Program-made: the position numbers and the translations under genes
Shown here: piece after piece, positions 58,860 through 59,760 of the stretch
How positions within the stretch are numbered: position 1 is the stretch's first letter
How the letters are laid out: every line of letters starts with the position of its first letter
Origin: Rhodoplanes sp. Z2-YC6860
GTDB taxonomy: Bacteria; Pseudomonadota; Alphaproteobacteria; Rhizobiales; Xanthobacteraceae
DNA length: 64,000 nt
NCBI RefSeq assembly: GCF_001579845.1
Contig: NZ_CP007440.1
Location: 4,920,029-4,984,028 of the forward strand
Direction of reading: 5' to 3'
The notes under the pieces: model-generated
Database searches by the model: none
Told to the model about the DNA's origin: nothing
The model's input: only the letters and a program-made list of their open reading frames with translations

Positions 58860-59196
58860 TGGTGCGGGCGGCCGGACTTGAACCGGCACAGCTCTTTCGA
58901 GCCTAGGGATTTTCGTACCCGCTACGGCTTTCGCCGCCTGGGCTTGGCATGTTCAGCCGAAGCCCTGTTTGGGGTCTGGACTATACCTTCACCGTGACGC
59001 ACTCGCGCGCTTTAGGTGCTGCCCGTCTAGTCTCTACACCTTCATGCCGGCCGCGCGACAATCGTTCGGCTGGCATGCTTGGCTCGGGATTGCCTGTCAC
59101 CGGTTTCCCCGAGTTTGAGCAGTTCTGCATCCAGGGTTTCCCCGGGAGCACTCAAGTCTTCAAGTCCCTTGCGTCTACCAATTTCGCCACGCCCGC
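58860..59196 (-). tRNA. tRNA-Leu(UAA), interrupted by a group I intron
   Basis: Exon 1 is 59196-59162 (35 nt) and exon 2 is 58913-58860 (54 nt including encoded CCA). Acceptor arms GCGGGCG and CGCCCGC pair. The spliced anticodon arm is AGGGA-CTTAAAA-TCCCT with anticodon TAA. A leucine-type long variable arm (GGCTC-GAAA-GAGCT) and T arm GCCGG-TTCAAGT-CCGGC are complete. Without splicing, no 7-nt anticodon loop can form. The intron splits the anticodon between U34 and A35, the same position as in cyanobacterial and plastid tRNA-Leu(UAA). Confidence 0.93.
58914..59161 (-). ncRNA. Group I self-splicing intron in tRNA-Leu(UAA)
   Basis: A 248-nt intron without an open reading frame. Exon 1 ends in U and the intron ends in G, as group I splicing requires. 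P1 can form between exon ACUU and intron GAGU with a terminal U-G. Core elements: P is AAACTCGGGGAAACC (59116-59102), Q is AATCCCGAGCCAAGC (59091-59077), R is GGTGTAGAGACTAGACGG (59040-59023), S is AAGGTATAGTCC (58989-58978). P4 pairs CTCGGG with CCCGAG and P7 pairs GACTA with TAGTC. A GGCGAAAGCC hairpin near the 3' end fits P9 with a GAAA loop. The layout fits subgroup IC3. Confidence 0.92.
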
Positions 59197-59313: not shown

Positions 59314-59760
59314 TCAGGCCTTGCCGGTATGGCCCCAGACCTCGTCCCAGATCTTGCCGGTCGGATCGGTGACGCGGCCGTCCTTCTCGTAAAATTTGTT
59401 CGGCACCTGGAAGATCGCCAGCATCAGGCCACCGTCCGGGCACCAGGCCGAATGGCGACTGCCCGGCTCGCGCCAGACGAACTCACCCTTCTTGGCCTCA
59501 AGGCCCTCAACCGGGCCTTCCTTGTCGACCAGGCGCCCTTCGAGCACATAGGTCTGCTCGATGTTGACGTGCTCATGGTCCGGCAGAACGGCGCCCGGCG
59601 CAAAGCGCATCAGCGCGGTCATCAGGCCGGTCTTCTCGTCCATCAGCAGGGTCTTTACTTCGCAGCCCGGAAAGCGCGTCGGCTTCCAGTCCATGTCGGC
59701 GGGCTTCACCACGTGCGAGTGCTCGTCGGCGGTGATGTGTTTCGGCGTGACGGCGTCCAT
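59314..59760 (-). CDS. Cupin-domain protein (ChrR-type)
   Basis: A 148-residue single-cupin protein. Metal-binding residues are in GAVLPDHEHVNIEQTYVLEG (two His, one Glu) and EPGSRHSAWCPDGGLM (His). It opens SHVVKPADMDWKPTRFPGCE and KTLLMDEKTGLMTALMRFAP, similar to the anti-sigma factor ChrR cupin and to acetylacetone-cleaving-type cupins. No sigma factor is adjacent, so a small dioxygenase or stress role is possible. GGAGGATCG precedes the ATG. Confidence 0.9.
   Translation of the reverse strand: MDAVTPKHITADEHSHVVKPADMDWKPTRFPGCEVKTLLMDEKTGLMTALMRFAPGAVLPDHEHVNIEQTYVLEGRLVDKEGPVEGLEAKKGEFVWREPGSRHSAWCPDGGLMLAIFQVPNKFYEKDGRVTDPTGKIWDEVWGHTGKA

Follow-up and report, generated by a model that had tools for sequence, protein, structure and literature searches.

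A group I intron in the anticodon of tRNA-Leu(UAA) in an alphaproteobacterium, with an empty site in sister species

Results

The split tRNA-Leu(UAA) gene

On the minus strand, positions 58860-59196 of the window (the whole 64-kb stretch of DNA analyzed here) read as a 35-nt 5' exon, a 248-nt intron and a 54-nt 3' exon:

59162..59196, minus strand: 5' exon of tRNA-Leu(UAA), 35 nt, last base U34 (ARAGORN with introns allowed and on the spliced exons; sequence)
58914..59161, minus strand: group I intron, 248 nt, G at both ends (ARAGORN junctions, RF00028 match, covariation)
58860..58913, minus strand: 3' exon of tRNA-Leu(UAA), 54 nt, first base A35, CCA encoded (ARAGORN; sequence)

An earlier note on this DNA had claimed that the tRNA becomes complete only when 248 nt, inserted between U34 and A35, are removed. 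When introns were allowed, ARAGORN returned tRNA-Leu(taa)i(36,248) from the unspliced strand, which agrees exactly, with the intron starting at position 36 and its junctions falling mid-anticodon between U34 and A35. The U said to precede the 5' junction and the G at the 3' end of the intron are both present in the sequence, and the joined exons, submitted to ARAGORN, gave an 89-mer with a tRNA-Leu(taa) fold. The note had suggested that standard annotation may miss this gene. ARAGORN with default settings found no tRNA anywhere in the 64-kb window, and Rfam at curated thresholds reported neither the split tRNA nor the intron. The sole Rfam report in the window was an unrelated RNA, the Rhizobiales sRNA Atu_At1 (RF02496), at 730-843 on the plus strand (80.5 bits). 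The covariance model for group I introns, RF00028, matched positions 58961-59171 over its entire length (model positions 1-253 of 253) once the threshold was relaxed, scoring 42.7 bits with an E-value of 1.7e-9, yet under the model's 50-bit cut-off; with strict filters, it missed the window intron in its own genome. Since the split gene is invisible to routine tRNA and Rfam settings, the tRNA set of the host is easily recorded one short.

Core helices and covariation

Helices P1 to P9.1 were assigned manually on the window sequence, and their pairs were scored in an alignment of 49 introns at the same site, comprising 49 of the 53 rows from the alphaproteobacterial part of the intron tree (three near copies and one hand-added row were omitted). 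The main elements are:

59150..59153, minus strand: internal guide sequence GAGU, the P1 partner of exon ACUU, with a U-G pair remaining at the 5' junction
59117..59122, minus strand: 5' strand of P3, CUGCUC (partner GGGCAG at 59019-59024)
59108..59113, minus strand: 5' strand of P4, CUCGGG (partner CCCGAG at 59083-59088)
59028..59032, minus strand: 5' strand of P7, GACUA, the guanosine site (partner UAGUC)
58979..58983, minus strand: 3' strand of P7, UAGUC (alignment of 49 introns)
58940..58965, minus strand: P9 hairpin, 75% of cells paired, six of six pairs changed on both sides
58925..58936, minus strand: P9.1 hairpin, CGGC GAAA GCCG, four of four pairs changed on both sides

The pairings that had been named for P4 (CTCGGG/CCCGAG) and P7 (GACTA/TAGTC) were thus both located on the minus strand. 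Across the named helices, 94.7% of 2,436 cells were paired, and 26 of the 52 named pairs showed changes on both sides. None of 500 shuffles scored as high as the real alignment on any of five measures, and sliding the partners by 1-3 columns lowered pairing to 30-45%. This covariation among homologous introns, unequaled by the shuffles, confirms that the insert is a group I intron in tRNA-Leu(UAA), beyond chance.

The U-G pair at the 5' junction was present in all 49 introns. P3 was paired in 100% of cells, with changes on both sides in one of its six pairs, while the first pair of P4 was lost in 12 of the 49 introns and P2 of the window copy held one internal C-U mismatch. P7 was unchanged throughout the alignment, so covariation is silent on this helix, and the covariation support for the P3-P7 pseudoknot comes from P3. 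The terminal G of the intron was also invariant, in an alignment whose delimiting rule itself required that G. Unprompted, RNAalifold drew helices P2, P3, P4, P5, P8, P9 and P9.1 in addition to most of P1 and a portion of P6a; P6 and P7 were not drawn in its consensus, pseudoknots being beyond its reach. The single-sequence fold (z -2.79) is a weaker argument than covariation. No homing endonuclease was found in the window intron, in which the longest inner frame is 56 aa at most and overlapping frames, of up to 97 aa, contain no HNH motif by eye.

UUA decoding in the host genome

The earlier note had suggested that this may be the organism's UUA-reading tRNA, and had named an intact tRNA-Leu(UAA) elsewhere as what would speak against its account. 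We looked for such a gene in the host genome, searched as one 8.19-Mb contig in which 5,000 bases near the 16S gene, at the rRNA genes, are N. A tRNA search, a DNA search and two patterns found no second tRNA-Leu(UAA) in the readable genome. The tRNA search gave 48 hits, among which ARAGORN read the leucine anticodons CAA, GAG, CAG and UAG. Used as a DNA query, the spliced tRNA found each of its own exons as a separate match, and tRNA-Leu(UAG) with 74% identity; all other matches were short and partial. A loose anticodon pattern had four matches in the genome, none lying inside a tRNA according to ARAGORN, and a D-arm pattern with up to two mismatches matched only the split copy and tRNA-Leu(CAA). 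The genes for tRNA-Ala(UGC) and tRNA-Ile(GAU), which are usually located near the 16S gene, were likewise not found in the readable genome and, because of the masking in the rRNA region, the absence of an intact tRNA-Leu(UAA) holds for the readable part. The split gene is the only detectable tRNA-Leu(UAA) of the genome. UUA is rare but in use, accounting for 18 of the 17,047 codons of 53 ORFs predicted in the window, picked by length and left uncurated.

An empty site beside the same gene in the genus

The locus was anchored in sister species by the gene upstream of the split tRNA, which lies outside the intron:

59314..59760, minus strand: upstream neighbor gene, 148 aa

This neighbor, which we take to be a cupin, had a sub-threshold NCBIfam match to the ChrR anti-sigma factor, and is ~81% identical in two genomes of the same genus (G008 and G010). 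In both of these, an intact tRNA-Leu(UAA) adjoins the same neighbor, with CTTAAAATC unbroken across the site, and when split and intact genes were aligned, the intron appeared as one clean gap. In another genome of the genus (G006), the same neighbor adjoins a split tRNA with a related intron, on a contig that ends within the 3' exon. The downstream flank had no match in sister species, so orthology of the locus is read from the upstream gene alone. Among 11 genomes of the genus, two matched the split pattern, two the intact pattern and seven neither; among 296 genomes of the family, 22 matched the split pattern and 129 the intact pattern, and the 146 that matched neither are untyped. The direction of change at the window locus, gain or loss, is one that we infer. 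With split and intact alleles next to one and the same gene, the genus offers a clean system for measuring intron gain, loss and cost. In the wider family, one genome (G275) has three split tRNA-Leu copies (L250, L251, L252), and another (G123) has one split and one intact copy (L248, L249); these multiple copies suggest mobile carriers.

Relatives across bacteria

A scan of named genome contigs for the 5' exon plus the intron core found at least 117 stretches. Among the 80 matches listed were Cyanobacteria, Alpha- and Gammaproteobacteria, together with four Bacteroidota (two of them Saprospiraceae), one Acidobacteria MAG and one Bacilli-labeled MAG. Since many of the records are MAGs, and one Tatlockia-labeled contig has a cyanobacterial-type intron, single MAG records are untrustworthy on their own. 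The Tatlockia-labeled contig (L118) is either in the wrong bin or the product of a recent transfer.

With strict filters, RF00028 detected introns in 7 of the 101 relatives searched, in 30 of 385 genomes from the class and in 33 of 398 from the phylum. These counts include introns of other genes and are lower bounds, because the window's own intron was missed each time. By reading of the anticodon stem, the survey hits include tRNA-Arg(CCU), tRNA-Arg(UCU), tRNA-Lys, tRNA-Ile(CAU), tRNA-Thr and tRNA-Leu(CAA), and two (L217 and L257) had no tRNA-like flanks by eye. The introns in tRNA-Leu(CAA) came from other genomes of the order and class (L034:1425-1736 and L228), that of L034 being inserted apparently after U33. 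Further hosts in the phylum, judged by eye, were tRNA-Lys (L221, L227, L229, L238), tRNA-Thr (L240), tRNA-Arg UCU (L258, L261) and tRNA-Ile CAU (L262, L266).

Among the relatives, seven longer tRNA-Leu(UAA) introns, and only these, contain an HNH-like frame of ~150 aa in the P6 region. The frame is antisense in six gammaproteobacterial introns of ~690 nt (688-698 nt; L079, L080, L083, L099, L107, L127), and is on the sense strand in the Bacilli-labeled L104 (677 nt). Two of the seven frames were scanned against Pfam, and both matched HNH families. With the same kind of intron found in several bacterial phyla and on plasmids, the old question of descent or transfer becomes testable.

Phylogeny of the introns

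Introns could be delimited at 102 of 135 loci tried, with 33 failing; one locus (L035) was then added by hand and one (L233) dropped, and the resulting tree of 102 introns was built from 214 columns, with an unsettled bootstrap and 48 of its 98 inner branches unresolved. In this tree, the cyanobacterial introns and the Tatlockia-labeled contig formed one set, supported at 100/100, whose branch measures 1.84 changes per column, and 18 gammaproteobacterial introns formed a set of their own (97/96). The window intron was placed in a set with four family members (99/91, and 95/89 after 13 more rows were included). Its nearest intron by path was that of G006, from its own genus, with 86% identity over the tree columns, and its nearest named introns were those of Bradyrhizobium and other Alphaproteobacteria. 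These named relatives, together with the Rhizobiales sRNA in the window, point to an alphaproteobacterial host. Bradyrhizobium sp. LMTR 3 (L092), which is in culture, is one example that has the split gene.

A second tree was built on the core, with 54 of the 102 rows picked by hand and 20 others, of which 68 of the 74 were used; six had no core by our rule (two Arg CCU, two Ile CAU, one Arg UCU and one Leu CAA). In this tree, introns of other tRNAs separated the alphaproteobacterial, gammaproteobacterial and cyanobacterial sets at low support. Four tRNA-Arg(CCU) introns fell on long branches among the alphaproteobacterial tRNA-Leu introns, and the gammaproteobacterial tRNA-Leu introns lay near tRNA-Lys introns (91/90, not starred). 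An AU test did not reject a core tree with all UAA introns in one set (p 0.166). The question of descent or transfer that the earlier note had raised is answered in part, in that the nearest introns are alphaproteobacterial and not cyanobacterial; the U34/A35 site shared with cyanobacteria may reflect either ancient descent or repeated targeting.

Split tRNA genes on plasmids and in Escherichia coli

The split tRNA matched 1,269 of 72,556 plasmid records, most of the 25 listed covering no more than 68% of the query, and we read four plasmid loci in detail (L280-L283). On a 316-kb conjugative plasmid of Bradyrhizobium, trb genes lie near a complete split tRNA-Leu(UAA) (L282:3001-3290), and a B. 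elkanii plasmid, likewise conjugative, has a decayed one near transposase genes (L283:2440-2800). Plasmids of E. coli (L280:3001-3297) and Aeromonas (L281:3001-3300) carry complete split tRNA-Leu(UAA) genes of the alphaproteobacterial type, each adjoining aac(3)-II and an AAA ATPase gene, presumably tmrB. The E. coli intron nested among alphaproteobacterial introns (98/93 and 98/98). At an E-value of 0.001, RF00028 found no match in this locus, nor in the endonuclease-bearing L079 and L104, and for both L280 and L281 the ARAGORN placement of the junctions differs from our manual reading. Phages were considered as carriers and rejected: the only two records that matched both belong to one Gordonia phage, over 23% of the query.

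Matches to the L280 gene were found in 635 of 5,426 complete E. coli genomes, in 624 over at least 80% of its length, and identity was at least 95% in 657 of 658 matching records. The places matched were plasmid in 589 of 670 cases and chromosomal in 81. When 60 records were sampled at even steps, no annotated feature lay under the match in any of them, including one that matches over 18% only. We give about even credence to the idea that the alphaproteobacterial split tRNA-Leu(UAA) is a traveling unit, which would move on conjugative plasmids among Alphaproteobacteria and would have entered the Enterobacteriaceae; it draws on presence and on the phylogenetic placement of single representatives, and splicing, use and homing enter it as presumed steps. 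If true, an unannotated foreign tRNA-Leu(UAA) able to splice itself would be present in roughly one in nine complete E. coli genomes, and the HNH endonuclease genes of the gammaproteobacterial relatives would drive the intron into the same anticodon site.

Discussion

Taken jointly, the explanation that we hold with high confidence is that the window intron is a functional group I ribozyme, predicted to splice, which interrupts the only detectable tRNA-Leu(UAA) gene of its alphaproteobacterial host, and that it belongs to an alphaproteobacterial tRNA-Leu(UAA) lineage gained and lost at one site. By established group I chemistry, the window transcript would splice as follows. The guide sequence would hold the end of the 5' exon, ACUU, in P1, with U and G paired at the splice site; P7 would bind a free guanosine that cuts after U34; and the freed 5' exon would then attack after the last G of the intron, joining U34 to A35. 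The product would be an ordinary UUA-reading tRNA, presumably aminoacylated and used, and the only tRNA of this kind found in the genome would depend on an RNA enzyme.

It is possible, although we consider it rather unlikely, that vertical descent from an ancestral alphaproteobacterium accounts for the intron, with many losses and no movement between species. The occupation of the same site in many alphaproteobacteria fits such a history, as does the closest intron by path, which lies beside the same gene in the same genus, and precise loss would leave an identical empty site; an AU test did not reject keeping all alphaproteobacterial introns as one set (p 0.196). However, one supported set (98/85) unites the family member G118, Chelatococcus and G703 of another order, and on this account movement among Alphaproteobacteria is favored over pure descent. 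The genomes with three split copies, or with a split and an intact copy, and the complete split genes on the Bradyrhizobium and E. coli plasmids also weigh against inheritance without movement. Label changes on the tree (11 for the family and 14 for other Alphaproteobacteria) point the same way, in counts that are inflated because at least four rows labeled 'alpha' are Bradyrhizobium and may fall in the family, and on a short alignment with about half its inner branches unresolved.

A decayed relic that no longer splices, in a host that reads UUA otherwise, is very unlikely. The sub-cut-off Rfam score, the decayed copy on the B. elkanii plasmid and the fact that splicing is read from sequence would suit a relic, but the junctions and cloverleaf are intact by ARAGORN, the core columns agree with those of 48 other introns, and a replacement tRNA is absent from the readable genome.

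Insertion between U34 and A35 is the site of the published cyanobacterial tRNA-Leu(UAA) introns, for which IC3 is the subgroup label. Judged by identity and tree placement, a recent cyanobacterial or plastid source of the window intron is unlikely, and as a rival explanation we consider it highly improbable. The cyanobacterial introns interrupt the same tRNA with the same core layout, and those loci also showed the U34/A35 site; AU tests, in trees built from bacterial introns, reject neither a grouping of the window intron with the cyanobacterial introns (p 0.368) nor a core tree in which the alphaproteobacterial and cyanobacterial tRNA-Leu introns make up one side (p 0.168). In contrast, the best identity to the window intron is 56.7% among 23 cyanobacterial introns and 82.8% among 22 from the same family, and the cyanobacterial introns form their separate, fully supported set on a long branch, whereas support is found for grouping the window intron with family members. 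Finally, a chance insert or a protein-spliced bulge-helix-bulge intron, which according to one review is the usual kind in tRNA anticodon loops of archaea and eukaryotes (PMC4033280), is extremely improbable, given the full group I core with its covariation and the many species that have homologs at this site.

The window intron is a genuine added member of a known intron family, and its empty site is unusually clean. In 2002, Vepritskiy et al. reportedly described the first tRNA-Leu(UAA) intron from outside the cyanobacteria, in a gammaproteobacterium. Gammaproteobacterial introns resemble that of the window in their tRNA, their proteobacterial host and their absence from annotation, but they form their own set and are at most 63.9% identical to it. 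Interrupted tRNA-Leu(TAA) and tRNA-Arg(TCT) genes are described in Beggiatoa and Thiomargarita (PMC4853749), and the review records group I introns in bacterial tRNA genes from cyanobacteria and from a few alpha- and betaproteobacteria (PMC4033280). We found no report of alphaproteobacterial tRNA-Leu(UAA) introns among the papers listed from the open-licence PMC literature, outside which the classic papers mostly fall. In the same host class, the tRNA-Arg(CCU) intron of Agrobacterium and Bartonella is also located in the anticodon loop of an unannotated tRNA, and in Bartonella it self-splices (PMC7717549); it differs from the window intron in its tRNA and insertion point. The tRNA-Ile(CAU) intron of Azoarcus, for which crystal structures are mentioned (PMC3984707), is likewise a proteobacterial tRNA intron of the same ribozyme class, but interrupts a different tRNA, and two other tRNA-Ile(CAU) introns met here lacked a core by our rule.
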